This document shows positions 2,238 to 18,112 of a stretch of DNA of 23,752 bases, piece after piece. The stretch's first letter is position 1. Each line of letters opens with the position of its first letter. The stretch comes from a virus, in the IMG/VR virus record IMGVR_UViG_3300034050_000169, positions 1 through 23,752 of that record; one strand, written 5' to 3'. The notes under the pieces are model-generated. The model was not told the DNA's origin. It was given only the letters and a program-made list of their open reading frames with translations, and did not search any database. The position numbers and the translations under genes were made by a program.

Positions 2238-3161
2238 TTACGCAGCGATACTTGAACCCGACTCGACACGGTACAAGGATGCTTCACGCATGCGTGCCCA
2301 GCCTTGCAGGGAGTACCAGCCGATAGGACGACTACGCATAAGCGAATCGACGACCGGACCGATAACGATTCCTGGCTCAACGGCAGTCGCCTCAGCGATA
2401 GCCTGCTTACCACAGATGATCGTGCGGTAAACGCGAGCAGACGAAGCGCCGTCAGTGGCGTTGTACGCACGTGGGGTTTCCACGAAGTACGCGCCACCAA
2501 GAACACCGACGACACCTTTAAGAACACCAGATGGATCAGTGAACTTGTTGATGTCTTCAAACGCTAGCGCGCCGGTCTCAGAGCGCAGATCATGCGCTGC
2601 TTCAGGATGGACATATGCTGCGTACAGCATTCCTTCCCGTGGCACTGCGTTTCCTGCACGCAGTTTAGCAACAGACTTGCGGATTGAAGCACCCGTTAGA
2701 GTGTCACCCGCCACGGTCGTTACGGTGCTGGCGTGTGCCGCGTTTGCGTAAATAACGTTCGTTCCAGCACGAGCCGTAGCGACCACAAGCTTGTCGATGC
2801 TGTCAGCCATGTTGTAAGCGACAATGTTTGCGATTGCTGGATCAACATCAGCAAAAGCAAAATTTGACAGTTTCTTAGACGAAATCACGACGTTGCCATA
2901 TTCTGCAAGAGTCACGGTCACGGTAGAAACATCGGATACTGCGACAGCAGTTGGGTCAGTGTTCTCAGTCAATGCTGTAGTCGCGGACGACAAGTCATTG
3001 TACAAAGAAAACACCACTGACGAACCGGGCATCGCCTGTTGAACTGGACGCTTGTCCACGAGATCGCGGAACATTGGTACAGAACGGAGAGAAAATTCAA
3101 CATAACGGTCATAGGCTGCCTTTACTAGGCCAGCAACCGCAGTTGTATCGGTATATGCCAT
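2238..3161 (-). CDS. Major capsid protein, N4-gp56 family
   Basis: 307 residues, forming the icosahedral shell. The start has the strongest ribosome site of the left arm (AAGGAGGTGA ahead of the ATG), fitting high expression. The order of segments follows the N4-gp56-like capsid family: VKAAYDRYVEFSLRSVPMFR near the N-terminus, PGSSVVFSLYNDL, ATTALTENTDP, VTVTLAEYGNVVISSKKLS, then DSIDKLVVATARAGTNVIYA, IRKSVAKLRAGNAVPREG, YVHPEAAHDLRSE and VGVLGGAYFVETPRAY. Length fits the family. It follows the scaffold gene after 48 bases and is followed by a strong hairpin. HK97-fold is known for such capsids; the family assignment here is by recognised motifs. Confidence 0.88.
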   Translation of the reverse strand: MAYTDTTAVAGLVKAAYDRYVEFSLRSVPMFRDLVDKRPVQQAMPGSSVVFSLYNDLSSATTALTENTDPTAVAVSDVSTVTVTLAEYGNVVISSKKLSNFAFADVDPAIANIVAYNMADSIDKLVVATARAGTNVIYANAAHASTVTTVAGDTLTGASIRKSVAKLRAGNAVPREGMLYAAYVHPEAAHDLRSETGALAFEDINKFTDPSGVLKGVVGVLGGAYFVETPRAYNATDGASSARVYRTIICGKQAIAEATAVEPGIVIGPVVDSLMRSRPIGWYSLQGWARMREASLYRVESGSSIAA

Positions 3162-3209: not shown

Positions 3210-3701
3210 CTAAACGGCGTTCGGGCCAGTAGAGTTACCGAAAAGGATCTTGTTCAAATCCTCCGGTGTCCTAGCACCAGCGATCAGACCCGCTATCTGG
3301 TCTGGATCATTCTGGAAAGGTTGACCGCTCTGCTGCGTTGCAGCAATACGGTTCAAACCGGACAAGTCAGGCGACCCGTTCGTTCTTTCAGTTTCGCTAG
3401 TGGAAGCCTGGACACCGAACACGTCACCGTATTCTTCAACCCAAGCACTCACTTCCTCGGTGGAAGTGAACTCCACTGGAATGAACGCAGAAATTTTCTC
3501 GTTCAAACCTTTAGCTGCGAGTACGTCTTTGACGGATCGTTCACGAACCGACTTCTGCACAGAACTCAACTGTTCCATCAGGTCTTTAATCTGTTTTTCT
3601 TTAGACCTGTTGGCTTTGCGAAGTTCACGTACAGCGGTCGAATCTCCACGCTGAGAATCCTCAGCATCAGTTTCATCGTCATAATCGTCATACTCAGACA
3701 T
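3210..3701 (-). CDS. Capsid scaffolding protein
   Basis: 163 residues, directly upstream of the capsid gene, the usual scaffold position. The N-terminus is very acidic (MSEYDDYDDETDAEDSQRGD), then a charged helix likely to form a coiled coil (residues ~24-53, RELRKANRSKEKQIKDLMEQ). A middle segment (DVLAAKGLNEKISAFIPVEF, then TSTEEVSAWVEEYGDVFG) matches the helical pattern of actinophage scaffolds, and a polar tail ends in PEDLNKILFGN. TAGGGAG precedes the ATG. No protease motif is seen. Scaffold proteins template procapsid assembly and leave before DNA packaging; this role is inferred from composition, coiled coil and neighbour. Confidence 0.75.
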   Translation of the reverse strand: MSEYDDYDDETDAEDSQRGDSTAVRELRKANRSKEKQIKDLMEQLSSVQKSVRERSVKDVLAAKGLNEKISAFIPVEFTSTEEVSAWVEEYGDVFGVQASTSETERTNGSPDLSGLNRIAATQQSGQPFQNDPDQIAGLIAGARTPEDLNKILFGNSTGPNAV

Positions 3702-3793
3702 AACACTCCCTACCTATTCCTTGAATGGTTGATTCGCCACCCGCGCACCAGTTTGGGGAAAGAGGTGCGGCTATGACTACCGGACTTATTCAG

Positions 3794-3816
3794 CGACAGG
3801 GCCGGTCGGTCTGTCG
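3794..3816 (-). other. Inverted repeat just 3' of the tRNA-like element
   Basis: Arms CGACAG and CTGTCG (6 bp) around an 11-base GC-rich loop, starting five bases beyond the 3' end of the tRNA-like element. No T-run follows. It could act as a weak terminator or a processing signal. Confidence 0.35.
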
Positions 3817-3820
3817 TGAG

Positions 3821-3905
3821 TGGAGATGTCGGGAGTCGAACCCGAGTTAGGTCACAGCGCAGGTAACTACACCGTGGCTTACGTGACCTCTATCCTGTCA
3901 TCCCC
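3821..3905 (-). ncRNA. tRNA-like RNA without a recognisable D-arm (tRNA-derived or tmRNA-domain-like)
   Basis: The minus strand gives an 85-base element. A 7-bp acceptor stem forms (GGGGATG with CATCTCC, one G-U), followed by discriminator A. The T-arm is perfect: TCGGG, loop TTCGACT (matches TTCRANY), CCCGA. Between them there is no canonical D-arm and no 5-7-5 anticodon arm. Instead nine unpaired bases (ACAGGATAG) lead into a 7-bp helix AGGTCAC/GTGACCT, continued by GTAA/TTAC with a 7-base bulge and a 12-base loop. This acceptor/T-arm plus long helix resembles the tRNA-like domain of tmRNA, but without room for its reading frame and pseudoknots. It lies in the 228-base gap between two virion genes. 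No CCA is encoded. A decayed tRNA is the main alternative; I cannot assign an anticodon. Confidence 0.6.
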
Positions 3906-3906
3906 G

Positions 3907-3923
3907 CCGAAGTGAAACTTCGG
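3907..3923 (-). other. Hairpin immediately 5' of the tRNA-like element
   Basis: Perfect 6-bp stem (CCGAAG/CTTCGG) with a 5-base loop. It sits seven bases after the stop of the upstream 380-residue gene and one base before the acceptor stem. It may be a processing signal for release of the tRNA-like RNA from the operon mRNA, or a weak terminator. Confidence 0.4.
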
Positions 3924-3929
3924 ATCGAA

Positions 3930-5072
3930 CTAGATTCCGCGCTGCCTTGAAAGAGAGCCTGTAGTTACGGAACCGCTACCACCGAAACGTGCCCGTTCAC
4001 GCGACTGCAAGGCGTTAACCTTTTTAGTCGCATTAGGGTCCGTATCAAATGTGGACTGGGCGATCTCACTATCAGTGAGAGTCGAATTCTCTAATTCTGC
4101 TAAACGTACAGTCGCATCACGAATCTCACGAGTCTTAGCGAGATCAGAACTCAACTGGTTCACCGAAATGTCGTTGTTTCCAGCAAGACCCGCAACCTGC
4201 CCAGCGGTCGAAGCGTCCAGGTTTAAGCCAGCTCGGGTGGCGTAACCGCCAGCGATACTAGCGTTAGCCATCTGGTTGATGCTGTTCTTAGTTCTAGTCG
4301 GATCAAGAACATACTGCACCAACGTTGCCGCCGGCACGTTGTAATACTGCTGCAACGAATCCAGCACCTCTTGTGGAGTGTCAGCGACTACGCGCTGAGC
4401 GTCAAGAACTCGATCACGCACCTCGCTCACCGACAACGAATAGTTACCAACGATGTCAGCGATCTTGGCTTGCTCAGAGGCACTACCTGCATCACCCAGA
4501 AACGATTGTATTCCAGAATCTCGAAACACACTCCGGTACTGTGTCTCCAGATTCAAGTATTCGCTTTCGTTACGAACGTCAGTAACTCCACGAGCCGCTA
4601 AATCTAGTAAACCTTTGAAGCGGGTCTTGTAAGGGTCAGTTTCTTTCAACTTCTCCGCAATTACCCCGGTGTTGTTACCCCACTGTGCGACGAGTGAATC
4701 GACAGATGAGGCGAGGCTACCAAGACCATACTGGGATAGAATCCCACGCAGGAAAGTTGAAGCACCCTCACGACTTTGATTGTTCAAATTATCAAAGTAG
4801 AGGTTTTGGGCAGTGTTATCTTGGGCGGCATAATTGTTGTTAACCACAGTAGGTACAGCCGGAGGTGCTACAGGCTGCTGCGCTTGCACTGGCGCTTTCG
4901 CTAGCTCTGCATACTGGGCGGCGACTGCTTGGACTTTCGCCTGACCTGCGCCTTTAATGTTTGCGGCAGCCTGCGAGTAGGCCGCGGCAGCAGCAGCGTT
5001 ACCTTTAGCCTGCTCAGAGGCGGCAAGGGCGAGATTATCCTTTACTCGCTGTGCTGGAGTTTTAGCAGCCAA
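3930..5072 (-). CDS. Virion structural protein (380 aa), internal-protein module
   Basis: 380 residues from an unusual TTG start at 5072. The only nearby ribosome site, AGGTGA, overlaps the previous stop and is five bases from this TTG. Residues ~1-60 are Ala/Gln-rich and helical, then a Pro/Gln linker (QAQQPVAPPAVPTVVNNNYA). The body contains FLRGILSQYGLGSLASSVDS, DPYKTRFKGLLDLAARGV, EYLNLETQYRSVFRDSGI, VRDRVLDAQRVVADTPQEVL and LVQYVLDPTRTKNSINQM. I recognise this as a widespread actinophage structural family of unknown exact role. The helical, Gln/Ala-rich make-up and position after the giant virion gene suggest an internal or ejected virion protein. Confidence 0.65.
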   Translation of the reverse strand: MAAKTPAQRVKDNLALAASEQAKGNAAAAAAYSQAAANIKGAGQAKVQAVAAQYAELAKAPVQAQQPVAPPAVPTVVNNNYAAQDNTAQNLYFDNLNNQSREGASTFLRGILSQYGLGSLASSVDSLVAQWGNNTGVIAEKLKETDPYKTRFKGLLDLAARGVTDVRNESEYLNLETQYRSVFRDSGIQSFLGDAGSASEQAKIADIVGNYSLSVSEVRDRVLDAQRVVADTPQEVLDSLQQYYNVPAATLVQYVLDPTRTKNSINQMANASIAGGYATRAGLNLDASTAGQVAGLAGNNDISVNQLSSDLAKTREIRDATVRLAELENSTLTDSEIAQSTFDTDPNATKKVNALQSRERARFGGSGSVTTGSLSRQRGI

Positions 5073-5077
5073 TCAAA

Positions 5078-5986
5078 TCACCTAAACCCAAATGTTTGAA
5101 GAAGTTGTTGCGCCACATCGGTGTACGTTGCGTAAGCATTATTGGTCTTCTGCCACCCAGGTTGTGAACGAAAAATCTTCTCAGCCTCATACAAGGGGAC
5201 CACCCTAGGCTTACCGTCAGAACCAACAGCCTGAGTTATTTGCCTCATCATCGGATCATTCAAGTTGATGTCGTCACGCTCCAGCACCCTGTTGCCGGCA
5301 TCCGTGTAGGCGCTAAATAGGGCCGAAGGGTCATTGCCTTGCGCGATCTTGTCTGCCCACGCAGGGTAGGCACCCATTAAGTAAGTTTTACGAAGATCAT
5401 CTTTCACATCTTCTAAACTCTGCTTGTTGAAAGTCATATTGGCTACGTACTTGCTGACCGCATCGGTAGATAGACCTAAACCATTCTGTTGCACCCAAGT
5501 AGTGAGCTGATTCTGATAGTCACCAGCGTTACCTTCAAGTTTGGAACCGAGCGTACTGGCCTTCAGGTATGGTTGTAGCCGCTTGTCAACTTGAGCCGTG
5601 TCGTTTATCCAGTTGTTTTTACGTGAATCGACTGCAAGTTCATCAAGTTCAGCATCAGTTAAAGGGACACCCTTCTCACTGGCATACTTCGCCAAAATGT
5701 CCCGGTTATTTGAGATACCCTTTTGCAGATCAAGCTTCAGCGCAGGGTCAGCCTGCTCCATCTGGAACTTCTGCTGGTCACTATCAAACTGTGACCACCA
5801 AGAATTACTGGCACGCTTCGCTGCCATCCACGTGTTAGGAGGAACCGCGCCCTTATGGGCGTTCATATACTTCTTTATGTCATTGAAGAAGCCGGCAAGC
5901 GCACCAGAAGGGTCTGAAGCAATCAGGTTCGCCGCGTATGCGTATTCCTTATAAACGTCCTGTTCAGTATAAACTTTAGGAGCCAC
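5078..5986 (-). CDS. Virion structural protein (302 aa), internal-protein module
   Basis: 302 residues, GTG start at 5986, overlapping the previous gene by 11 bases. Almost entirely helical and rich in Lys, Asp, Gln and Trp. Recognisable segments are YQNQLTTWVQQNGLGLSTDA, SLEDVKDDLRKTYLMGAYPA, WADKIAQGNDP and a C-terminus with PRVVPLYEAEKIFRSQPGW and QQLLQTFGFR. I know this layout from structural genes next to giant virion proteins in aquatic-type actinophages. No enzyme motif or membrane segment is seen. Role in the virion is likely; exact function unknown. Its six-base gap to the next gene holds the shared stop/ribosome-site arrangement that starts the 380-residue protein. Confidence 0.62.
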   Translation of the reverse strand: MAPKVYTEQDVYKEYAYAANLIASDPSGALAGFFNDIKKYMNAHKGAVPPNTWMAAKRASNSWWSQFDSDQQKFQMEQADPALKLDLQKGISNNRDILAKYASEKGVPLTDAELDELAVDSRKNNWINDTAQVDKRLQPYLKASTLGSKLEGNAGDYQNQLTTWVQQNGLGLSTDAVSKYVANMTFNKQSLEDVKDDLRKTYLMGAYPAWADKIAQGNDPSALFSAYTDAGNRVLERDDINLNDPMMRQITQAVGSDGKPRVVPLYEAEKIFRSQPGWQKTNNAYATYTDVAQQLLQTFGFR

Positions 5987-17800: not shown

Positions 17801-18112
17801 ATGTGTACTTATTGCGGTGGTTGGGATGAGTCGGGGCCGTTGGGGTTGTGTGCTGAGTGCGTGCGGTTGCACTCGCGGTGGGGGTGCGAGTCGCGCCCTG
17901 ATTCGTGTGATGCGTGCGCGATTTTGGAGCGCGCTGGCATTGTGATTGATCACGAGGATCGTGTGTTGAGTTTGTCGCCTAGTGAGTTGACGGCGTTGGA
18001 TGTTGCGTTGGGTGATTTGTTGGAGGATATGCACTCACATAACGCGGTGCCTTCTGCGGATTTGATCACAGTTGCCGAGCGTGTGCGGATCCTCGCGGGG
18101 GGTGCGGCATGA
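17801..18112 (+). CDS. Zinc-ribbon-like small protein, first gene of the right operon
   Basis: 103 residues. ATG 17801 was chosen over in-frame GTG 17750 because GGGAG sits five bases upstream and the likely promoter lies on top of 17750. Cysteine pairs are CTYC (2-5) and CAEC (~18-21), then a lone C and DSCDAC, enough for one or two zinc sites. The C-terminal half is helical and Cys-free (LSLSPSELTALDVALGDLLE, SADLITVAERVRILAGGAA). Zinc knuckle plus helix suggests a nucleic-acid-binding or regulatory adaptor; no named family is recognised. Its stop overlaps the next start in ATGA. Confidence 0.65.
   Translation: MCTYCGGWDESGPLGLCAECVRLHSRWGCESRPDSCDACAILERAGIVIDHEDRVLSLSPSELTALDVALGDLLEDMHSHNAVPSADLITVAERVRILAGGAA

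Follow-up and report, generated by a model that had tools for sequence, protein, structure and literature searches.

In tmRNA the third acceptor pair is a fully conserved G-U and acts as a strong determinant for alanyl-tRNA synthetase (PMC3985003). Mycobacteriophage DS6A encodes an RNA with only the tRNA-like domain (TLD), which was reported to inhibit the host tmRNA in E. coli, perhaps by titrating SmpB, chargeable or not (PMC4131195, PMC11915505). Mitochondrial tmRNAs without a coding sequence (CDS) occur together with SmpB, and a helping role with incomplete mRNAs is ascribed to them (PMC11915505). The tmRNA database of 2025 holds 97,179 unique sequences, of which only 9 are 'standard, no CDS' forms and 79 come from phages (PMC11915505). 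The tmRNA genes also serve phages as attB (PMC10865867).

An 85-nt RNA element on the minus strand (3905->3821) of the window, i.e. the whole stretch of 23,752 nucleotides of viral DNA analysed here (IMG/VR record IMGVR_UViG_3300034050_000169), is a hitherto overlooked, divergent member of a widespread phage family of tagless tmRNAs. The element shares its strand with the head operon and sits between the phrog_8424 gene and a scaffold-like gene that is followed by the major capsid gene. It reads GGGGATG-ACAGGATAG-AGGTCAC-(27 nt)-GTGACCT-AAC-TCGGG-TTCGACT-CCCGA-CATCTCC-A, where AAC links the P2 helix to the T-arm. The features of the locus are:

3930-5072, minus strand: upstream gene, phrog_8424, unknown function (PHROGs)
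3821-3905, minus strand: TLD-only tmRNA-like RNA, 85 nt (fold, RF00023 E 4e-16, model R1 46.7 bits, homologues at the same place)
3899-3905, minus strand: acceptor stem 5' strand GGGGATG (7/7 pairs with 3822-3828)
3890-3898, minus strand: D-loop ACAGGATAG without a stem (its GG is conserved: 48/48 lineages, 82/82 motif-defined elements)
3883-3889, minus strand: P2 helix 5' strand AGGTCAC (partner-swap tests in relatives and family)
3856-3882, minus strand: capped inner arm, 27 nt (MFE structure; differs between subfamilies)
3849-3855, minus strand: P2 helix 3' strand GTGACCT (compensatory changes among relatives)
3829-3845, minus strand: T-arm TCGGG-TTCGACT-CCCGA (5/5 pairs; covarying T-stem among relatives and in the family)
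3822-3828, minus strand: acceptor stem 3' strand CATCTCC, yielding G3·U70 (25 of 26 unique relatives; all 82 motif-defined elements)
3821, minus strand: discriminator A73 (26/26 relatives; CCA is not encoded in the window element)
3737-3815, minus strand: scaffold-gene leader with H1, PK1 (3802-3806 with 3779-3783), H2 and a possible PK2 (28-sequence alignment)
3210-3701, minus strand: scaffold-like gene, phrog_7813, weakly matching head scaffolding protein (PHROGs)
2238-3161, minus strand: major capsid protein (phrog_1357, E 1e-72)

The minus strand folds at -34.4 kcal/mol (z -2.9), with 2 of 200 shuffled sequences equally good, and its MFE structure consists of exactly the acceptor stem, the T-arm and the central helix. 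This P2 helix has 7 bp (AGGTCAC/GTGACCT) and is topped by the capped arm. There is no anticodon arm, the D-loop carries GG without a D-stem, and the elbow is formed by the D-loop GG and the T-loop. A 7-bp acceptor with G3·U70 and A73 is the signature of alanine identity. An earlier note, which was made from the sequence alone and gave no strand, had claimed a set of tRNA-like elements at 3821-3905; all of them are present on the minus strand, and the D-armless middle with a 7-bp helix that it described is what the MFE fold gives, with the capped arm on P2. We rejected a reading on the plus strand, which folds more weakly (z only -2.0) and lies opposite to the genes.

The Rfam tmRNA model RF00023 matches the window with 38.9 bits (E 4e-16 for the 23.7-kb record), spanning model positions 1-374 except for the tag and pseudoknot region, all of which is deleted, and the suspected likeness to the tRNA-like domain of tmRNA is thereby borne out. 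This score falls under the 47-bit gathering cut-off, and no Rfam family matches the window at its gathering threshold; the organelle tmRNA models of Rfam leave this window stretch unmatched even when hits up to E 10 are allowed. ARAGORN, which looks for a cloverleaf with D-arm and anticodon arm, reports no tRNA gene in the window (0 genes). Since RF00023 matches with the tag and pseudoknot region missing and ARAGORN finds no tRNA, we take the element to be a tmRNA reduced to its TLD. It has no mRNA-like domain, resume codon or tag frame, the 27 nt inside P2 leaving no room for them, and the pseudoknots PK1-PK4 of tmRNA are absent, the model region between the two TLD halves being deleted. The features of an alanine-accepting TLD (G3·U70, A73, 7-bp acceptor, T-arm) are all found, and so are those by which a TLD-only tmRNA is defined (PMC11915505), i.e. 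a TLD kept without a coding sequence and encoded by a phage. The D-loop of the window element (GGATAG) lacks the TTCGAC signature.

A covariance model, R1, scores the window element with 46.7 bits (E 1e-7 in 676 kb). It was built from four other phage elements of equal length, and covariation was assessed on fixed blocks, because MAFFT misplaced the 5' ends where the D-loop lengths differ. Some forty other elements from the pattern searches or the relatives score above 40 bits, and the control loci named tRNA by ARAGORN mostly reach ~34 bits or less. The controls above ~34 bits we read as misnamed members of the mini-tmRNA family; ARAGORN calls them a permuted tmRNA (L063, 9953-10030), a tRNA-Gln (L090, 789-861) and a tRNA-Cys (L097, 1599-1677). 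Its permuted tmRNA call in Streptomyces phage BRock (L209, 1776-2401) covers a mini-tmRNA plus a tRNA. The labels on these four loci are likely misannotations.

The element is kept at the same place in most phages with related capsids. Eighty loci encode such capsids, and in 64 of them the leader and the upstream DNA could be checked. A D-armless RNA of 77-97 nt lies in the same gap in about 52 of the 64 (L199 is counted here on inspection, although the script scored it 'none'), and a normal tRNA adjoins it in six of these. Only a tRNA-Tyr is found in the gap in two relatives and neither RNA in about 10, so the element is dispensable. One relative (L120) has an identical element and a capsid 100% identical to that of the window. 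The element sequences differ widely among the relatives and P2 still pairs (5.78 vs 4.68±0.15 with partners swapped, 0/1000). The earlier note had asked for compensatory changes in AGGTCAC/GTGACCT, and relatives do carry them, e.g. CTTGTTC/GAACAAG, TGGACAA/TTGTCCA and AGGGAAC/GTTCCCT; the T-stem covaries as well. A73 is found in all 26 unique versions and G3·U70 in 25, the exception being a G-C (L192-L194), in a search that demanded neither. Ordinary tRNA-Tyr/Ile or whole tRNA arrays occupy the gap in some relatives. It is filled by 14-21 ordinary tRNAs in the Streptomyces beephviruses (L202-L205), and the arrays of the four records checked hold no D-armless element.

The family extends to unrelated phages. 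A first pattern, which fixed the acceptor and the T-arm, brought in about 48 more lineages from contigs of unrelated phages. Many of these share an inner arm of the form P2-AARR-CCN-CANG-NGG-P2' and a tmRNA-like D-loop GGTTTCGAC; the tmRNA-type D-loop TCGAY occurs in 17 of 48 lineages, with 0.96 expected. The inner motif AARR-CCN-CANG-NGG belongs to a subfamily other than that of the window element. A second pattern, based on this motif and leaving positions 66-70 and the entire 5' half free, matched 118 stretches in IMG/VR, which reduce to 82 unique elements in 46 sequence groups. It had 0 matches in 84,980 bacterial and archaeal species genomes, a search without positive control that is suggestive only.

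All 82 motif-defined elements form seven acceptor pairs and carry GG in the D-loop, which reads TYGA in 77 of them. G3·U70 is present in 82/82 while the pairs 4:69, 5:68 and 6:67 vary among as many as six pair types; the pattern fixed C71-C72-A73, so that G1, G2 and A73 are not independent evidence in this set and G3·U70 is. P2 forms 6.20 of 8 pairs, compared with 3.74 (maximum 4.13) when the partners are swapped. The T-stem covaries in the wider family too, and no subfamily has a D-stem. The CCA end is directly encoded in 12 of the 48 lineages (1/64 expected by base frequency) and in 15 of the 82 motif-defined elements. The RF00023 cut-off is passed by 13 of 14 wider-family members, as ~81-nt matches. 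The strong class has one copy per record in 14/14 phage records, and these are the copies of which 13 pass that cut-off. A search for an SmpB gene came up empty in these 14 records and in 13 capsid-relative records, so the SmpB of the host would be used. The element is unannotated in the cultured Streptomyces phages BRock, LuckySocke, pSt2308 and Alone3, where it lies inside tRNA arrays, with coordinates 17977-18054 in LuckySocke; Enterococcus phage EfsSzw-1 has a full-length tmRNA of 348 nt instead. Some loci found by pattern (L038, L076 and perhaps L026, L064, L078 and L105) may be odd tRNAs, and we base our conclusions on the capsid relatives and the motif-defined elements. L038 has, at 5058-5303 on the minus strand, three different tRNA-like RNAs in tandem with long D-arm-like hairpins, at least one of which ARAGORN missed; they are perhaps unusual tRNAs.

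The genomic positions of the element vary. It lies between head protease and capsid genes in L108 and L067, between head morphogenesis and protease genes in L095, between terminase and portal genes in L043, in tRNA arrays in L091 and L117, and elsewhere in other lineages. Among 90 lineages it runs along with both neighbours in 42, lies between divergent genes in 18 and is antisense to both neighbours in 6. Because of the antisense and divergent placements we consider the element to be a gene in its own right and not a mere mark for mRNA processing.

A structured leader of the scaffold gene follows the element. The hairpin at 3794-3816, which the earlier note had taken to bracket the RNA, is H1 of this conserved, pseudoknotted leader, and for the one at 3907-3923 no counterpart was seen upstream of the element in the relatives inspected. 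In the leader alignment of 28 sequences (A8), 95.9% of the cells are paired, vs 81.7% after shuffling and <=53% in slid controls, and 13 pairs changed on both sides support H1, the pseudoknot and H2. The pseudoknot joins a loop RYCGG to a downstream CCGRY. No Rfam family matches 3737-3815. The leader is kept in nearly all capsid relatives, with or without the mini-tmRNA, and could serve as a regulatory site for scaffold or capsid synthesis. A73 and the leader helix are 4-8 nt apart in 41 cases. By inspection, the pseudoknot pairing (GCTGG/CCAGC) seems to be kept after the last tRNA in L202-L205. An HNH-like endonuclease gene is apparently inserted between mini-tmRNA and leader in L149, L159 and L160 (around 3763-4330), where a short acceptor/T-arm-like remnant adjoins the leader. 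A ~44-nt minihelix-like remnant (GGAGAGT...ACTCTCCA) replaces the mini-tmRNA just before the leader in L153 and L176-L178, and is possibly a further reduced form.

Judged from the sequences, alanine identity, a tRNA elbow, the loss of tag and pseudoknots and a structure maintained by selection are properties of the element. We lean towards reading it as a phage tmRNA reduced to its TLD, a tagless mini-tmRNA, that would lower trans-translation by competing with the host tmRNA. Its most likely function would be that of an alanylated, SmpB-binding decoy or dead-end substrate blunting trans-translation. The tRNA-processing enzymes of the host would cut the RNA out of the late head-operon transcript, after which it would receive CCA, be alanylated by the host AlaRS, bind the host SmpB (and EF-Tu) and compete with the host tmRNA. 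Being messageless, it could neither tag nor properly release stalled ribosomes, and trans-translation would therefore be lowered during the synthesis of virion proteins. The invariant G3·U70 is hard to explain if charging is irrelevant, so it suggests that the RNA may enter the stalled ribosome as a dead-end substrate, beyond passively soaking up SmpB. A broader proposal is that, in many unrelated tailed phages, an ~80-nt alanylated tagless tmRNA mimic enters stalled ribosomes together with SmpB of the host, serving there as dead-end or tagless-rescue substrate, that trans-translation is a general target of counter-defence and that charging is essential, beyond SmpB titration; we offer it tentatively and hold it to be rather doubtful as a whole.

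Against the main reading stand the window D-loop without TTCGAC, the score below the Rfam cut-off and the relatives without the element. The RNA could instead work in tagless rescue, entering the stalled ribosome with SmpB, taking over the nascent chain and letting it leave untagged, which would help phage proteins to survive, as suggested for the tagless mitochondrial tmRNAs. The strict G3·U70 and the CDS-less mitochondrial tmRNAs found alongside SmpB (PMC11915505) agree with this, but no release step is known without a stop codon and a TLD-only RNA reportedly inhibits in E. coli (PMC4131195); we regard such rescue as unlikely. We think it a little less likely still that the element serves in cis, RNase P and a tRNA 3' nuclease cutting the fold so that the scaffold/capsid mRNA gains its 5' end there, and the RNA being a by-product. 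The spacing of 4-8 nt before the structured leader would fit a cis role too, tRNA-Tyr/Ile or tRNA arrays can fill the same gap, and other lineages have the element between head protease and capsid genes. However, cutting does not need an invariant G3·U70, many copies lie in tRNA arrays or antisense to their neighbours, and about 10 relatives keep the leader without any tRNA-like RNA. The suggestion of an RNase P substrate that sets mRNA ends therefore survives as maybe a side effect in this operon, where cis and trans roles may coexist, and leaves the conservation of G3·U70 and the copies outside operons unexplained.

A decayed or odd ordinary tRNA is very improbable and was rejected: real tRNAs do occupy the slot in some relatives, but diverged sequences keep the fold, with compensatory changes, and G3·U70, no subfamily has a D-stem and the tmRNA model matches. 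We give even less weight to a phage attachment site whose sequence copies a host tmRNA gene's 3' end. Although phages use tmRNA genes as attB (PMC10865867) and a Streptococcus-like group among the pattern hits (L011, L016, L029, L054, L092, L119) looks att-like by inspection, the window element is a complete TLD that itself has P2 and a matching 5' acceptor strand and lies in a head operon, the relatives have the same head genes on its flanks, and no integrase is found among the window proteins scanned; this reading was rejected as well. The mini tmRNA-like decoy is thus the best supported of the three readings offered in the earlier note, given the tmRNA model match, the alanine identity, the tmRNA-type D-loops of many relatives, the lack of a tag and the DS6A precedent.

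The present work contributes 82 unique TLD-only RNAs of phages that are defined by the motif (46 sequence groups) and 26 diverged ones at the capsid-relative slot. That RNAs of this type recur in dozens of unrelated phages suggests that phages may commonly block or hijack ribosome rescue, and if the family acts as the DS6A RNA reportedly does, the blocking of ribosome rescue would be a recurrent strategy. The invariant alanine identity predicts that charging is needed, which separates SmpB titration from entry into the ribosome.

The family shares with full-length tmRNA (RF00023) the TLD with a stemless D-loop, G3·U70, A73 and the T-arm, but its members are 77-97 nt long and lack the mRNA-like domain, resume codon, tag and pseudoknots. 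The CDS-less tmRNAs of mitochondria (jakobid, oomycete) and of Mallomonadaceae plastids have likewise lost the tag and kept the TLD; they differ in obtaining SmpB from the nucleus of the same organism, and their reduction is independent. Ordinary phage tRNA arrays, as in the Streptomyces beephviruses, share the intergenic slot and the processing logic, whereas they consist of canonical cloverleaf tRNAs with anticodons. The RNA of DS6A, set beside the family by its description, is also phage-encoded, hardly more than a TLD and without a tag reading frame. It is the one phage example in the literature consulted, while the present family covers dozens of unrelated phage lineages, has a defined architecture of P2 and capped arm and often lies in head operons.
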